64,000 bases of DNA from contig NZ_CP017181.1 in assembly GCF_001729765.1 (NCBI RefSeq), forward strand, positions 248,001 to 312,000, written 5' to 3'. This stretch comes from Enterobacter kobei. GTDB lineage: Bacteria > Pseudomonadota > Gammaproteobacteria > Enterobacterales > Enterobacteriaceae. Made by a program: the position numbers and the translations under genes. Shown here in pieces: positions 57,197 to 64,000 of the stretch. Position 1 is the first letter of the stretch. Each line of letters starts with the position of its first letter. The notes below the pieces were generated by a model, which was not told the DNA's origin, made no database searches, and was given only the letters and a program-made list of their open reading frames with translations.

Positions 57197-57724
57197 ATGG
57201 CCAGCAGAGGCGTAAACAAGGTGATTCTCGTCGGTAATCTGGGCCAGGACCCGGAAGTACGCTACATGCCGAGTGGTGGCGCAGTTGCCAACATTACGCT
57301 GGCTACTTCCGAATCCTGGCGTGATAAAGCGACCGGTGAGATGAAAGAGCAGACTGAATGGCACCGCGTGGTGCTGTTTGGCAAACTGGCAGAAGTTGCC
57401 GGTGAGTATCTGCGTAAAGGTTCTCAGGTCTATATCGAAGGCCAGTTGCGTACCCGCAAATGGACCGATCAGTCCGGCGCTGAGAAGTACACCACCGAAG
57501 TTGTGGTAAACGTTGGCGGTACCATGCAGATGCTGGGCGGCCGTCAGGGCGGTGGCGCGCCAGCAGGTGGCGGTCAGCAGCAGCAGGGCGGTTGGGGTCA
57601 GCCTCAGCAGCCACAGGGCGGCAACCAGTTCAGCGGCGGCGCGCAGTCTCGTCCGCAGCAGCAGTCTGCTCCGGCACCGTCTAACGAGCCACCAATGGAC
57701 TTCGACGACGACATCCCGTTCTGA
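57197..57724 (+). CDS. ssb: Single-stranded DNA-binding protein SSB
   Basis: This 175-residue tetramer protects ssDNA in replication, repair and recombination. An OB fold (residues about 1-112, [25 protein letters not shown] at its start) is followed by a Gly/Gln/Pro-rich linker ([20 protein letters not shown], from about 114) and the acidic tip MDFDDDIPF that recruits partner proteins. The linker is a few residues shorter than in E. coli (178). The start follows CAGGAGACACGAAC. Confidence 0.97.
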
Positions 57725-57783: not shown

Positions 57784-58065
57784 TCAGGTAATCACCATTG
57801 GCCAGTCTGGTGGCTGGTGGCTCATTGCCTCTACCATCACGACTTTAATATTTTCCCAGACAGCGGCAATATCCAGCAGGGTGATGCCCAACAGGCCCGT
57901 TGCGAACCAGCAAGCCGCGCCAAGTCCCAGCAGAGTGCTGATGACCGCAAGACCCGCGTAGTCAGATTTACGAAACTGAATGTTCAGCGTGCTGGCTAAA
58001 AACATCAGTACCGCGCTCAACAAAGGCCAGCGCAGGAGAACCATGCTGGTAGTAATGGTTGCCAT
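57784..58065 (-). CDS. yjcB: Inner-membrane protein YjcB
   Basis: This 93-residue protein has three membrane helices (VLLRWPLLSAVLMFLASTLN, YAGLAVISTLLGLGAACWFA, TGLLGITLLDIAAVW) and no known function. The start at 58065 (MATITTSMVLLRW) matches E. coli; an ATG at 58074 is in frame upstream. A perfect CRP half-site pair is centred about 70 bp upstream of the start, suggesting cAMP-CRP control. Confidence 0.92.
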   Translation of the reverse strand: MATITTSMVLLRWPLLSAVLMFLASTLNIQFRKSDYAGLAVISTLLGLGAACWFATGLLGITLLDIAAVWENIKVVMVEAMSHQPPDWPMVIT

Positions 58066-58592
58066 AGAACCCATCCTCTACAAAACAGACGAACTGAATG
58101 AAACGGTGTTTCTCGTTACAGAATATGTGTGAACTATATCACATTTGTTGATTTATTCGCCAGCGTCTGAGCGTTCAAAATGGGGATTTTATTACGCAAA
58201 AAAGGCGATGGTGCCGGGTACCTGGGTCCCGATACCTGGCTGAGCGGACACACGATGGGCCAGCCACGTTGTTTTTATAAGTGGCACGTTATTTTTTGCT
58301 CATCCTGAAAATAATGTGGTAATAGCCGGGCATTTATAAAACATCGATTCTCTGTTGTGTTATCTTCAAACCCCACATGTGCGCTGGATAATTATTTCCC
58401 TTAATTGAAACGGAACGAATACTTACAGTTTAGCTTACGGGAAAATATTATCGTCATAACGAAATTTAAGATTTTTAATACTAAAAGTCAGTTGCTAACT
58501 TCGCATGATTCATGCAACGTAATCACCTGTTTAACAAAGCATCCGGCCTTCATTACTACAGGCGTACAACATGCAGGGATATAGGGCGGGAA
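58066..58592. other. yjcB-pdeC intergenic region
   Basis: This 527-bp gap between divergent yjcB and the pdeC remnant is AT-rich from about 58290 onward. It holds the CRP site at 58128-58143, a hairpin-like GCCACGTTG...AAGTGGC (about 58263-58287), and no ORF with support. Promoters for both genes must lie here. Confidence 0.6.
58128..58143. promoter_or_regulatory. CRP site upstream of yjcB
   Basis: TGTGAACTATATCACA is an exact TGTGA-N6-TCACA dyad. It lies 62-78 bp ahead of the yjcB start. Confidence 0.85.
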
Positions 58593-59029
58593 ATGAATCG
58601 TAGCGCGCGGCGCAAAATGCTCAGGGTAGTAGGGATCATCATGGTAGTTATGCTGCCGGTGATGCTTGCCCTATGGTTTGCCCAGCTAAGAGCCGTGTCG
58701 GAAACAAGCGCTCAGCTCCGTACATTTGCTGAACTGGCTTTAGACAAAACAGAACTGGTTATTCAACAAGTTGATCTGGCCCGGGACGAGGCCGAAAAAT
58801 ATCAGGGTAAACTTTGTACACCGGAACATCGCCAATATATGTTGAACGTTGTGCGTGGCCGCCTGTTTGTCGCTGATTTAATTTATGCAGAAGGTCAGAA
58901 TTTTCTTTGTTCAACCGTTTTTACACCGGACCAACCTTACGCGATCCCGATTGCCAATTACACCCGTAAACCTGACATCGCTATCTATTATTTTCGCGAC
59001 ACGCCATTTTATACTGGCTATAAAATGAC
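58593..59029 (+). pseudogene. pdeC: c-di-GMP phosphodiesterase PdeC (YjcC), N-terminal remnant cut by IS1
   Basis: About 146 codons of a CSS-motif phosphodiesterase remain. They encode the first membrane helix (VVGIIMVVMLPVMLALWFA) and the start of the periplasmic sensor domain with the redox Cys residues in QGKLCTPEH and FLCSTVF, up to YYFRDTPFYTGYKMT. The reading then enters IS1 and stops after six foreign residues (59051). The second helix and the whole cytoplasmic EAL domain are missing, so no enzyme activity is possible. In E. coli PdeC is an inner-membrane c-di-GMP phosphodiesterase of about 528 residues linked to the oxidative state of the periplasm. Confidence 0.93.
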
Positions 59030-59084
59030 GGTGATGCTGCCAACTTACTGATTTAGTGTATGATGGTGTTTTTGAGGTGCTCCA

Positions 59085-59360
59085 GTGGCTTCTGTTTCTA
59101 TCAGCTGTCCCTCCTGTTCAGCTACTGACGGGGTGGTGCGTAACGGCAAAAGCACTGCCGGACATCAGCGCTATCTCTGCTCTCACTGCCGTAAAACATG
59201 GCAACTGCAGTTCACTTACACCGCTTCTCAACCCGGTACGCACCAGAAAATCATTGATATGGCCATGAATGGCGTTGGATGCCGGGCAACCGCCCGCATT
59301 ATGGGCGTTGGCCTCAACACGATTTTCCGCCATTTAAAAAACTCAGGCCGCAGTCGGTAA
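59085..59360 (+). CDS. insA: IS1 protein InsA
   Basis: This 91-residue DNA-binding regulator has a zinc-finger-like CPSCSATDG...CSHC and a helix-turn-helix ([20 protein letters not shown]). Alone it binds the terminal repeats and represses transposition. A run of A (TTTAAAAAAC near 59333-59342) is the usual -1 frameshift point that joins it to insB' to make the active transposase. Confidence 0.95.
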
Positions 59361-59782
59361 CCTCGCGCATACAGCCGGGCAGTGACGTCATCGTCTGCGC
59401 GGAAATGGACGAACAGTGGGGATACGTCGGGGCTAAATCGCGCCAGCGCTGGCTGTTTTACGCGTATGACAGGCTCCGGAAGACGGTTGTTGCGCACGTA
59501 TTCGGTGAACGCACTATGGCGACGCTGGGGCGTCTTATGAGCCTGCTGTCACCCTTTGACGTGGTGATATGGATGACGGATGGCTGGCCGCTGTATGAAT
59601 CCCGCCTGAAGGGAAAGCTGCACGTAATCAGCAAGCGATATACGCAGCGAATTGAGCGGCATAACCTGAATCTGAGGCAGCACCTGGCACGGCTGGGACG
59701 GAAGTCGCTGTCGTTCTCAAAATCGGTGGAGCTGCATGACAAAGTCATCGGGCATTATCTGAACATAAAACACTATCAATAA
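59279..59782 (+). CDS. insB: IS1 protein InsB (transposase catalytic part)
   Basis: This 167-residue frame holds the DDE-type catalytic part of the IS1 transposase. It is normally made as the InsA-B' fusion by -1 frameshifting rather than from its own start. The sequence [21 protein letters not shown] through [22 protein letters not shown] (outline) matches standard IS1 copies, so the element appears active. Confidence 0.95.
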
Positions 59783-59797
59783 GTTGGAGTCATTACC

Positions 59798-62062
59798 CCG
59801 ACAGCGATGCTGGAGAACACGACGGCCGCTATTACGGGTGAAAAGAACAACGTTCTGCCTTTGCATTTTAGTGCGCGGGGTGTCGAAGCGCAGCAGGCAA
59901 TGCTGAATAATGAATTACGCAAAATAACACGTCTGGAAATGGTTCTGGCTATCGTTGGTACCATGAAAGCGGGGAAATCGACCACAATTAATGCCATTGT
60001 GGGGACCGAAGTGTTGCCTAATCGCAACCGCCCAATGACGGCGCTTCCTACCCTGATTCGTCATACGCCAGGCCAGAAAGAGCCGGTACTCCATTTCTCA
60101 CATGTCTCGCCTATTGATGATTTGATCCAGCTGCTGCAGAAACAACTCTGCGATTACGATCGCGGGAAGCTGGCTCAGCATCTGGAAATTGATAAAGACA
60201 TGAATACGCTGCTGGAACGCATTGAAAAAGGTGAAGCCTTTGAAAAGCATCATCTTGGAGCGCAGCCAATATTTCATTGCCTGAAAAGCCTCAATGACCT
60301 GGTAAGACTCTCTCAGGCGCTGGGCGTGGCGTTTCCGTTTTCAGAATACGCGGCCATTGAACACATTCCGGTCATTGAAGTGGAGTTCGTGCATCTTGCG
60401 GGTCTGGATGCCCACCTCGGGCAACTGACGCTGCTCGATACCCCTGGGCCTAATGAGGCCGGACAGCCGCATCTGCAAAAAATGCTGAGTGAGCAGTTAG
60501 CCCGCGCATCGGCGGTGCTGGCGGTAATGGATTATACCCAGCTTAAATCTATATCTGATGAAGAGGTCCGTCAGGCTATTTCGGTGGCGGGGAAATCCGT
60601 GCCTCTGTATGCCCTGGTGAATAAATTCGACCAGAAAGATCGCAATAGCGATGATGAAGAGCAGGTCCGGGCGATGATCTCCGGTACCTTAATGAAAGGC
60701 AATATTTCGCCTGGCCAGATCTACCCTGTCTCCTCCATGTGGGCGTATCTGGCGAACCGCGCTCGCTACGAGATGAATACCCACGGACAACTGCCGGATC
60801 ATCAGGAGCAACCCTGGGTGCAGGATTTTGCCGAAGCCGCCCTCGGTCGCCGCTGGCGTACGGCGGACCTGGATGATATTGGCCATATCCGTCACGCCGC
60901 CGATTTGCTCTGGGAAGATTCGCTGTTTGAACAACCGATACGCAAACTGATTTACGCCGCCTATGCTAATGCCTCGTTATTTGCGTTGCGCTCGGCGTCC
61001 CATAAGCTGCTCAACTACGCACAAAATGCCCGGGAATATCTCGACTTCCGCTATCAGGGGCTGACGGTCGCCTTTGACGCGCTGGAACTGAATATTACGC
61101 GTCTTGAAGAGGACATGGCGATGATGCAGACGCGCCAGCGGGTGGTGAGCGATGAGGTGAAACATGAAGTTGAGCAGGCGCTGAATGCCACTGCGGACTT
61201 TATGGGGGCCCAAAAAACAGCGCTTCACCAGGCGATTGGTCACGTGTTCAGCGATCGCAATATCCTTGATTTAGCCGGTAACGATCGGTTGAATCCTCGC
61301 GGTGACGAGCCGCAAGAACTACAGCAGCTGGTTCTGGATGACGAGGGGCAGGCACAGATTGCCCTGAGTAAAATCCGCTCCTCCTGCGAGCTTATCATGC
61401 TGGATGCGCAGACAAAGATCTGCCGGGAGCTGGCGTTACGCTTCGATCAGCTGGAGTCTACGCTGGCGCGTTCCCTGAATGACGCCATGCGTCCCATTGA
61501 AACGCGTATTAAAGAGCATCTGAGCCATGCCGGCTTTCGGGCGCGGATTAGCTTCCCGGCTTTTCAGGCTAACCAGCTTAACGTCAATACGCAGGCGCTG
61601 TTTAACGATGCCATAGCGCAGGACAACCGCCCTGCAGGACAGCCATCGGGCGCGGGCAGCATGCGTGAGACCGTCTCTCGCTGGCTGAATAATCCGGGCT
61701 GGGGCTGGGATGAATATGTGGCGACCCGCACGCGCTATGTTATCGACATTGCGCAGCTACATGACAAATTTAAGCAACATATTGATCAGTTTTGTGAACA
61801 TATACGTAAAGCTTTGTCCGCCCAGGTCGATGTCTCTGTTACGGCAGGAATGGCGACGTTCTTTGCAGAATTTTCGTTATACCTGACCGGGTTACAGGAA
61901 AGCTTGCGTGATAGCCTCGCAGTGCGTCAACAAAATGAGCATTCGACCCGAGCGCTCAGCCAGCTGTTGAAGCAAAGTATCACTACTGCGACGTGGATAC
62001 AGGAAGATACCCGACTGTTACGCGATGATATTCAAACTCTATTCGCGGCAGAGCAACCATGA
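59798..62062 (+). CDS. crfC: Dynamin-like GTPase CrfC (YjdA), 5' end removed by IS1
   Basis: The frame is open from the IS1 edge (PTA codons) and has an ATG at 59807 that would give 751 residues. The native start and roughly 20 codons, judged against E. coli CrfC (742 residues), are missing. The GTPase domain is intact: P-loop GTMKAGKS (51-58 from the ATG), DTPGPNEAG and NKFD; a long helical region and the conserved tail RDDIQTLFAAEQP follow. In E. coli CrfC is reported to bind the DNA polymerase clamp and pair sister forks, and the yjdA-yjcZ pair affects motility and c-di-GMP. The missing start may include the clamp-binding motif near the N-terminus. Residual expression would rely on an IS1-borne promoter. 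Confidence 0.88.
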   Translation, partial: PTAMLENTTAAITGEKNNVLPLHFSARGVEAQQAMLNNELRKITRLEMVLAIVGTMKAGKSTTINAIVGTEVLPNRNRPMTALPTLIRHTPGQKEPVLHFSHVSPIDDLIQLLQKQLCDYDRGKLAQHLEIDKDMNTLLERIEKGEAFEKHHLGAQPIFHCLKSLNDLVRLSQALGVAFPFSEYAAIEHIPVIEVEFVHLAGLDAHLGQLTLLDTPGPNEAGQPHLQKMLSEQLARASAVLAVMDYTQLKSISDEEVRQAISVAGKSVPLYALVNKFDQKDRNSDDEEQVRAMISGTLMKGNISPGQIYPVSSMWAYLANRARYEMNTHGQLPDHQEQPWVQDFAEAALGRRWRTADLDDIGHIRHAADLLWEDSLFEQPIRKLIYAAYANASLFALRSASHKLLNYAQNAREYLDFRYQGLTVAFDALELNITRLEEDMAMMQTRQRVVSDEVKHEVEQALNATADFMGAQKTALHQAIGHVFSDRNILDLAGNDRLNPRGDEPQELQQLVLDDEGQAQIALSKIRSSCELIMLDAQTKICRELALRFDQLESTLARSLNDAMRPIETRIKEHLSHAGFRARISFPAFQANQLNVNTQALFNDAIAQDNRPAGQPSGAGSMRETVSRWLNNPGWGWDEYVATRTRYVIDIAQLHDKFKQHIDQFCEHIRKALSAQVDVSVTAGMATFFAEFSLYLTGLQESLRDSLAVRQQNEHSTRALSQLLKQSITTATWIQEDTRLLRDDIQTLFAAEQP

Positions 62063-62934
62063 CAACACAGCTACTGGACGGTCCCGGGCGGACGCTGGAG
62101 TGTATTCATCCTAAATTTATGGTCGATCTTGTGCAGGGCGTGGACGTTGCACGTCATCCTCATTTGGGGCCGCAGCAGCTGCAGTTTCGTGAGCGCTTGA
62201 CTCAGGAGATCATGACGCACACCCGGTTACGACCCTGGGCGATGGCCGGAATGCTGAATGAGAATGCTGCCCTGCGCCTCGGTCTGGCTGAAAAACTCGC
62301 CGGGATGCTTGACCCTGGCCATCTTGCGCTGACGCTGATGGCGGATAAATTGAATACACTTCGTCAGCAGGCTCACTTAAGGGCTCAGCCCTCTCCGGGC
62401 CTGCTTGAACAGTACGCTGAGCTCTCATCGCATTTTACCCAACGTGCCGTTTATAAAGAAAAGGCGCTAACTCAGCGTGGACTGACCGTCCAGGCGGGTG
62501 AGCACAGCGAGCAAATTTTCACTCGCTGGCGAGCCGGTCATTATGATGGCTGGTCGCTGGCCGGGCGTTGTTTCATTGTCCTGGAAGAGTTGCGCTGGGG
62601 GGCCTTCGGCGATGCTTGCCGTCTGGCGAAGGACGATGTATCGGCCATGCTCAAGGATAATTTACGCAGTATGGCTGCCAATTATCTTGCTCAGGGTATC
62701 AATGCGTCTCCTGCAACGCGCCATTTCTATCATCAGTGGCTGACCACACCCGCTTCGGCGGGTTTAATCGATCATAAAGACATGCTGGGGTGGCTGGGTG
62801 ACTGGTGTCAGGCGGATAAACACCCGGTGAGCTGGTCAGTTACGCAAAACTGGCAGACCGTTGCGCTGGGTATGCCGAGGCTGTGTTCGGCAAAACGTCT
62901 GGTGGAGGCGATGGTGGAGGAGATTTTTGGTTGA
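62059..62934 (+). CDS. yjcZ: YjcZ/RdcB family protein, partner of CrfC
   Basis: This 291-residue protein matches E. coli YjcZ (also named RdcB, diguanylate cyclase regulator). It overlaps crfC by four bases (ATGA), so the two are coupled. It has no clear enzyme motif; conserved segments include HPKFMVDLVQGVDVA near the start and WRAGHYDGWSLAGRCFIVLEELRWGAFG (outline; about 157-184). It is expected to work with the dynamin-like partner in c-di-GMP-linked motility control; this is family knowledge, not visible in the sequence. Its promoter upstream of crfC has probably been lost. Confidence 0.85.
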   Translation: MTTQLLDGPGRTLECIHPKFMVDLVQGVDVARHPHLGPQQLQFRERLTQEIMTHTRLRPWAMAGMLNENAALRLGLAEKLAGMLDPGHLALTLMADKLNTLRQQAHLRAQPSPGLLEQYAELSSHFTQRAVYKEKALTQRGLTVQAGEHSEQIFTRWRAGHYDGWSLAGRCFIVLEELRWGAFGDACRLAKDDVSAMLKDNLRSMAANYLAQGINASPATRHFYHQWLTTPASAGLIDHKDMLGWLGDWCQADKHPVSWSVTQNWQTVALGMPRLCSAKRLVEAMVEEIFG

Positions 62935-62935
62935 A

Positions 62936-62980
62936 CCCCTCACCCTCACTCTGGCCCTCTCCCCAGAGGGGAGAGGGGAT
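62936..62980. repeat. Intergenic CTCTCCC/GGGAGAG repeat, copy 5 (reversed)
   Basis: CCCCTCACCCTCACTCTGG then CCCTCTCCCCAGAGGGGAGAGGG (arms CCCTCTCCC/GGGGAGAGGG). It lies between convergent yjcZ and kdgT, opposite in orientation to copies 1-4. Confidence 0.8.
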
Positions 62981-62996
62981 GGTTTGGTGCGGTTTG

Positions 62997-63989
62997 TTAA
63001 TGTTGAAGCTCTGCTGCCTTCCTTTCTACATCTTTCTCTTGCACGTTTCCGTAGCGTTTCGCGTACAGTGCCGTGATGATCGGCACCAGAATCGCGGTAA
63101 CAATCACGCTGGCAGCCACCAGTGCCGTTGCAGAAGCGGCTACCGGTTCGAAGGCCGGGTTAATCTGAGCAATAATCACCGGGTTTGCGACCGCAGCACC
63201 TGCGGCTGAAGAGGCGGCGACACCCGCCGTGCCGTTTCCGCCGCCAATCACGCGGTCGGCAATAATCAACGGAATACCGGTGATGATGATGACCGCAACC
63301 CCCAGCACAATACCCAGCAGGCCCGTATCAAGGATCACGTTCAGGTTGATGGTGTTGCCCAGCGCAAAACCAAAGAACGGGATGAGTACGGGTGTGGCTT
63401 TGCTGAAGAAATCGCGCAGATCGTGATCCAGATTCCCGAGGGCGAAACCGATCAGGAAGGGCAGGATCGCGCCAACAAAGTGGTGAGGCTCAAAAGAGGC
63501 CAGGCCAGCAGAACCCAGGATCAGCATCGTCATGAGCGGGCCGGACTCCAGAGACATCAGAACAAATGCCCCGGATTCTTCTTTCGTTCCGTACTGGTTC
63601 ATCAGGCTGGCATACAACCCGCCGTTAGTCATATCCATCGCCGAGACAATTGCCAGGACCGATAAACCCGCGAAGAAACCGGTCTGAATTCCATTCTCTG
63701 GAATAAACATCGCGCATATCATGGCGACAACCCAGGCCACCGCTATTTTGGTTATGACCAGCGTGCCGGATTTGCGTAATACGGTGCCTGTTGCACGTAA
63801 ATTAATGGATGCACCGATACAAAAGAACCAGACTGCCAGGATGGGGACGGTACCTGTAATCATCCCTTTTGTGAAACCGCCAAAATAAGCCCCGGTTTCA
63901 GGCGCTAAGGTATTCAGAATAGCACCGAGTACCAGGGGGACCAGCATCATACCACCAGGAATACGTTCTATCGTGGCTTTAATCTTCAT
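62997..63989 (-). CDS. kdgT: 2-keto-3-deoxygluconate permease KdgT
   Basis: This 330-residue permease has about ten helices and belongs to the KdgT family, which imports 2-keto-3-deoxygluconate from pectin and uronate breakdown by proton symport. Conserved segments are [47 protein letters not shown] and [22 protein letters not shown] (outline). The start at 63989 ([13 protein letters not shown]) has GAGGG upstream within the window; an in-frame codon at 63995 is less likely. In K-12 it is not next to crfC-yjcZ, where proP follows. Control elements lie beyond the window. Confidence 0.88.
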
Positions 63990-64000
63990 ATACAACCCTC

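Follow-up and report, generated by a model that had tools for sequence, protein, structure and literature searches.

A single IS1 element marks a very probable deletion of about 41 kb between pdeC and crfC/rdcA in an Enterobacter genome

The window analysed here, a stretch of 64,000 nucleotides from Enterobacter kobei (contig NZ_CP017181.1, positions 248001-312000), contains near its right end a single copy of the insertion sequence IS1 (window positions 59030-59797) that joins the first part of pdeC to a crfC/rdcA gene lacking its start. Comparison with related genomes leads us to conclude that about 41 kb between pdeC and crfC/rdcA was almost certainly deleted by IS1 in the lineage of this strain, with a single IS1 left at the scar. 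A first-pass annotation of the window had proposed such a loss, either by IS1-adjacent deletion or by recombination between two IS1 copies, and the proposal is borne out: the interval is contiguous in relatives and was not found here. The process is known, and the locus is a clear but ordinary case of gene loss driven by a mobile element.

The element belongs to the IS1 family by its length of 768 bp, its IS1 terminal sequences and its two overlapping transposase frames, which we presume to be insA and insB. Its boundaries are exact and both ends are complete, as described at first pass. Between its 9-base flanks, TAAAATGAC and CCGACAGCG, only 2 of 9 positions agree and the other 7 differ; the 8-9 bp direct repeat of a simple insertion is therefore missing, and the earlier claim that IS1 did not arrive in this way holds. 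This absence carries weight, since duplications of 8-9 bp flank 15 of the genome's 35 full-length IS1 copies. Simple insertion at this site is thus ruled out.

The genes on either side of the element lie far apart in relatives. A search with the pdeC part covered 60 genomes of the genus, including the strain's own, and gave a match in 57 and none in 3; spacing was then measured in 11 of the 56 other pdeC-bearing genomes, chosen among those that matched better. The pdeC and crfC breakpoints are 39.9-46.9 kb apart, with order and orientation conserved, in all 11. Our reference relative is G002, the best match in the pdeC-part search, where both breakpoints correspond exactly: the pdeC part has its last base at 377497 and the crfC part its first at 418598, leaving 41,100 bp in between, and the DNA neighbouring the interval is 90-94% identical to that of this genome. 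Furthermore, matches to crfC, rdcB and kdgT were absent from the 18-kb stretches around pdeC in 8 of 8 cases, two of which are only 74-79% identical at pdeC. A usual arrangement with pdeC directly beside crfC, which the first-pass annotation had named as a finding that would overturn its proposal, was seen in 0 of 11 relatives and is rejected. In K-12, where the first pass had placed the two genes some tens of kb apart, 50.1 kb separate the end of pdeC from the start of rdcA.

The interval itself is absent from the genome, which comprises a 4.88-Mb contig and a second contig of 47 kb (4,927,478 bases; completeness 100, contamination 0.1). We searched both contigs with three adjoining pieces spanning the G002 interval (L043:3499-18001, L079 and L080:1-11606), scoring the best 40 first-look candidates in each search, a depth at which small leftover pieces could escape. 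These searches returned only short repeats that occur in many places, weak paralogous stretches and one fdhF match. The weak matches are short stretches in sugar ABC transporter genes at 68-86% identity, and the fdhF match, 68% over 2.1 kb, is taken as a paralog. At the protein level the best-scoring match in this genome was 28% for SoxR (in a search run without a control genome) and 25% for Acs, for which G002 as the control gave 100% in the same search. Of the genes that the first pass had suggested looking for, soxR and acs are thus represented only by distant paralogs. When the genome was searched with the PdeC N-terminus, the remnant and a single 26% paralog were the only matches, and the corresponding search for crfC found a single locus; intact copies elsewhere, the other observation that would have told against the proposal, are accordingly rejected.

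An inversion or translocation between IS1 copies, offered in the first-pass annotation as the alternative to a loss, would also yield an IS1 without target duplication while relocating the interval. The interval is found on neither contig, and none of the 38 IS1 matches in the genome has TAAAATGAC or CCGACAGCG at its complementary side. A second IS1 flanked by the missing gene parts, which was to be looked for, was likewise not present among the 38. Since neither the interval nor the reciprocal junctions were found in the genome, we read the event as a deletion and reject an IS1-IS1 inversion that moved the interval, to which we give next to no likelihood. It is also conceivable that two distant IS1 copies were fused during assembly and the interval left out, as assemblies go wrong at repeats of the IS1 kind and the case is built on an assembly. 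That assembly has only two contigs and the quality figures given above, and 41 kb would need to have been discarded altogether; we consider an artefact very improbable.

Several points nevertheless weigh against the deletion. The content before the loss is deduced from genomes of other species, the joint is read from the assembly and not from sequencing reads, and the 40 candidates scored for each interval search mean that small remnants could remain. Additionally, the sequence does not separate an adjacent deletion from recombination between IS1 copies, 11 full-length copies including that of the window being identical. In support of a deletion, four further IS1 copies without target duplication show collinear gaps relative to G002.

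Two routes could have produced the deletion. An IS1 in pdeC or crfC could have targeted a remote site of the chromosome that carried it, giving an adjacent deletion by intramolecular replicative transposition, or each of the genes could have held an IS1 in direct orientation and the two copies could have recombined. By either route the excised DNA would be lost. The two are inseparable here because they leave the same scar and 11 IS1 copies are identical. We slightly favour adjacent deletion, at somewhat better than even odds, because a single prior insertion suffices. The same type of scar is present at four other IS1 copies in this genome, and a report on the long-term evolution experiment (LTEE) describes three populations in which an IS already present earlier at the same position lay behind 14 of 14 IS-associated deletions, none of which had a target duplication (PMC11708052). 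However, all 14 of those cases involve IS150, the 5 IS1 events described there were not associated with deletions and had duplications, and no intermediate is at hand for the locus studied here.

Homologous recombination between one IS1 in pdeC and another in crfC is only a little less probable, at somewhat under an even chance. The genome offers 35 full-length copies, 11 of them identical, and another of its loci points to an exchange between IS1 copies: CTTTTGCAG is divided there between an IS1 on the chromosome and one on the plasmid. The LTEE report counts recombination between ISs among the frequent reasons why duplications are missing (PMC11708052). For this route, two IS1 copies pointing the same way must have been inserted beforehand, and no trace of them is seen; its end product is the same as that of an adjacent deletion. 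A single-step event, in which IS1 entered the joint as the large deletion formed, for instance into an existing break and without a duplication, was proposed by the LTEE authors to explain a deletion involving IS5 and a duplication involving IS481 (PMC11708052); it is superfluous for explaining the scar here, and we regard it as scarcely credible.

The gene content of the lost interval was judged by tblastn of K-12 proteins, a subset of the K-12 interval genes, against the G002 stretch 374000-424000. According to this comparison the deletion would have removed the pdeC 3' part, soxS, soxR, ghxP, yjcE, actP, yjcH, acs and gltP, as well as yjcO, fdhF, phnP-O-N-M-L-K-J-I-H-G-F, phnD-phnC, yjdN, yjdM and the start of rdcA. 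No tblastn match in the stretch was obtained for yjcF, nrfA, nrfE, mdtP, mdtO, yjcS, alsK, alsB or rpiB, and alsA and alsC gave only 39-40% matches. The K-12 list of intervening genes applies only partly to G002, because yjcF, nrfA, nrfE, the als genes and others have no good match there. The first-pass list (soxRS, acs-actP, nrf and phn) is thus correct for K-12, where soxRS, actP-yjcH-acs, nrf and phn do lie between the two genes, while its nrf component is not supported by the G002 stretch, in which nrfA and nrfE, the two nrf genes tried, are without a match.

Both interrupted genes were recognised as first described. The left part aligns over 437 nt to pdeC of G002 and matches the CSS-motif domain (PF12792) at profile positions 2-112 of 209, about half of the domain; a Pfam domain search found no EAL domain in it. 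The pdeC frame enters IS1 and terminates at 59051, giving a product of 152 aa. On the right, crfC retains its Dynamin_N domain and has lost its first 30 codons relative to G002. The next ATG, at 59807, corresponds to codon 34 of the G002 gene and leaves 751 aa compared with 784 aa. Named crfC loci place the window in Enterobacter, and the best named match over 59798-64000 is Enterobacter chuandaensis at 89.2%, in a collection that may leave out records very near the window's genome. A search of E. coli with the whole region returned essentially IS1 among the matches listed (best 30 of 9,561 records), at 14-15% of the query, and none of these covered 80%. The first 72 bp of a Franconibacter helveticus contig (L150:1-72) are IS1-like and lie about 1.35 kb before crfC, so that IS1 may lie near crfC in that species too.

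The 38 IS1 matches in the genome fall into two lineages that differ in identity to the window copy (99.7-100% in one, about 92-93% in the other), and 20 of the 35 full-length copies lack a target duplication. The 150-base flanks of these 20 were mapped against G002 alone, with 19 left and 18 right flanks (L086 omitted from both sets and L082 from the right; the last right flank lacked 3 letters). Both flanks mapped for five copies, in each case with order and orientation preserved and a gap of about 0.7-41 kb between them. Only the right flank was found for L002, L006 and L025, L015 gave only a 39-base left match on the second contig of G002, and for the remaining copies searched neither flank was found. 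The four gaps other than that in the window (Table 1) are differences relative to G002, in which gain there and loss here are not distinguished. The L009 gap spans a whole secretin gene and the next two type II secretion genes, with frames cut on both sides. The L029 gap, approximate because the match to the left flank was confined to its outer 89 bases of 150, includes an AbgT-like transporter with two M20 peptidases, a methyl-accepting chemotaxis protein (MCP) and a Y-family polymerase gene.

Table 1. Features at the pdeC-crfC joint (window positions) and four further IS1 copies with collinear gaps relative to G002 (genome positions).
Feature	Position	Strand	Remarks
Complete IS1	59030..59797	+	Same sequence as 10 further full-length copies of this genome; no target duplication
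IS1 insA frame (name presumed)	59085..59360	+	91 aa
Second IS1 transposase frame (presumably insB)	59279..59782	+	TAA stop at 59780-59782
pdeC 5' remnant	58593..59029	+	437 nt: 145 full codons and 2 nt of 521 codons (G002)
crfC/rdcA minus first 30 codons	59798..62062	+	Dynamin_N GTPase domain kept
rdcB (yjcZ)	62059..62934	+	Intact partner gene; Pfam PF13990, positions 1-272 of 272
kdgT-like permease	62997..63995	-	Right neighbour, collinear with G002; from domain match and comparison with G002
yjcB	57784..58074	-	Intact left neighbour; Pfam PF15940
ssb	57197..57724	+	Intact left neighbour, collinear with relatives; name from K-12 gene order
IS1 copy L017	G000:C1:47841-51608		No target duplication; gap of about 0.7 kb, glycosyl hydrolase family 1 gene cut
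IS1 copy L009	G000:C1:1490219-1493986		No target duplication; gap of about 4.9 kb
IS1 copy L007	G000:C1:1859105-1862872		No target duplication; gap of about 3.4 kb
IS1 copy L029	G000:C1:2110666-2114433		No target duplication; gap of about 17.4 kb, approximate

Elsewhere in the genome a copper/silver (pco/sil) region is split at IS1, with the pco side chromosomal (L015:2269-3768, G000:C1 near 4115093) and the sil side on the 47-kb contig (L012:1-1500, G000:C2 near 30544). The 9-bp CTTTTGCAG is divided between the right side of the chromosomal IS1 (L015) and the left side of the plasmid IS1 (L012), and the outer flanks of the two are contiguous in plasmid NZ_CP024882.1, where they overlap by 9 bases. 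This pair of IS1 copies points to an exchange and not to a deletion. A further copy, L021 (G000:C1 near 3624065), has a 16-bp gap just inside its left end, with positions 9-24 missing. L021 and L015 have a common left neighbourhood, since TTGCAAAGTTAGCGATGAGGCAGCCTTTTGTC precedes both.

The two broken genes had been linked at first pass to cyclic di-GMP (c-di-GMP). For crfC the label is justified by its K-12 annotation as rdcA, regulator of diguanylate cyclase, and by PMC6510439, which describes activation of the diguanylate cyclase DgcE by RdcA together with RdcB and reports that deletion of either phenocopies a dgcE knockout in K-12. A review describes PdeC as a redox-controlled CSS-EAL phosphodiesterase (PMC8846402). 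DgcE is present in this genome (75% over 1,105 aa). The RdcA N-terminus that was lost, MHTQTIFELSQEAERLLQL and close variants, occurs in 80 of 80 loci (the best 80 of 129), 78 by pattern and 2 differing from it by one residue; because of this conservation its loss probably matters. A clamp-binding motif has been placed at residue 41 of K-12 CrfC (PMC6374313). The region aligned to this motif falls behind the cut, and the motif is not conserved in the two Enterobacter sequences aligned.

Together with its conserved N-terminus, RdcA has lost the DNA before its start, and the protein would be made, if at all, only via transcription through IS1. The transposase stop shares its frame with the truncated crfC and precedes the first ATG of that gene by 24 nt, so read-through or re-initiation from the transposase frame is a possible means of expression. 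A promoter scan gave 3 sites against a shuffle mean of 3.2, which is no excess; one of the 3 lies in the IS1 left end. If RdcA were expressed in this manner, a protein shorter by 33 residues would possibly still be made from IS1 transcription.

Relative to G002, the L007 gap also concerns c-di-GMP genes: a CSS-EAL gene is reduced to its C-terminal part, a dCache-GGDEF gene is missing and the next GGDEF gene is intact. This pattern was noticed afterwards and carries no significance test. That IS1 deletions repeatedly rewired c-di-GMP signalling in this strain, with PdeC lost, RdcA cut and placed behind a transposase gene, and the L007 genes hit, seems to us unlikely. If it were true and the changes were selected, it would represent parallel adaptation of matrix or motility control via IS1 deletions.

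The gene set of the deletion is moderately interesting and gives simple phenotype predictions. A single IS1 event predicts several losses, in the superoxide response (SoxRS induction), acetate scavenging (Acs-ActP), phosphonate use (C-P lyase), the fdhF ortholog and the redox-controlled c-di-GMP phosphodiesterase PdeC. Furthermore, with its many duplication-free IS1 copies this genome is a natural example in which gene loss driven by ISs can be studied. A limited literature search showed no report of this IS1 deletion in Enterobacter among the papers listed, which does not show that it is unpublished.

Adjacent deletions by IS1 are known from classical E. coli genetics. The element and the expected scar are the same as in those studies, whereas here the genome is a natural Enterobacter one and the event is reconstructed. 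Acinetobacter baumannii NCIMB8209 belongs to another genus and is likened to this strain by the title of its report, which points to many IS-linked losses in one strain (PMC7392541). The deletions of the E. coli LTEE (Ngan et al. 2024, PMC11708052) differ in that IS150 is involved there and IS1 here, and in that earlier stages were seen only there. They nevertheless resemble the pdeC-crfC joint in leaving one IS at the scar and no duplication, with deletions of up to 48.9 kb.

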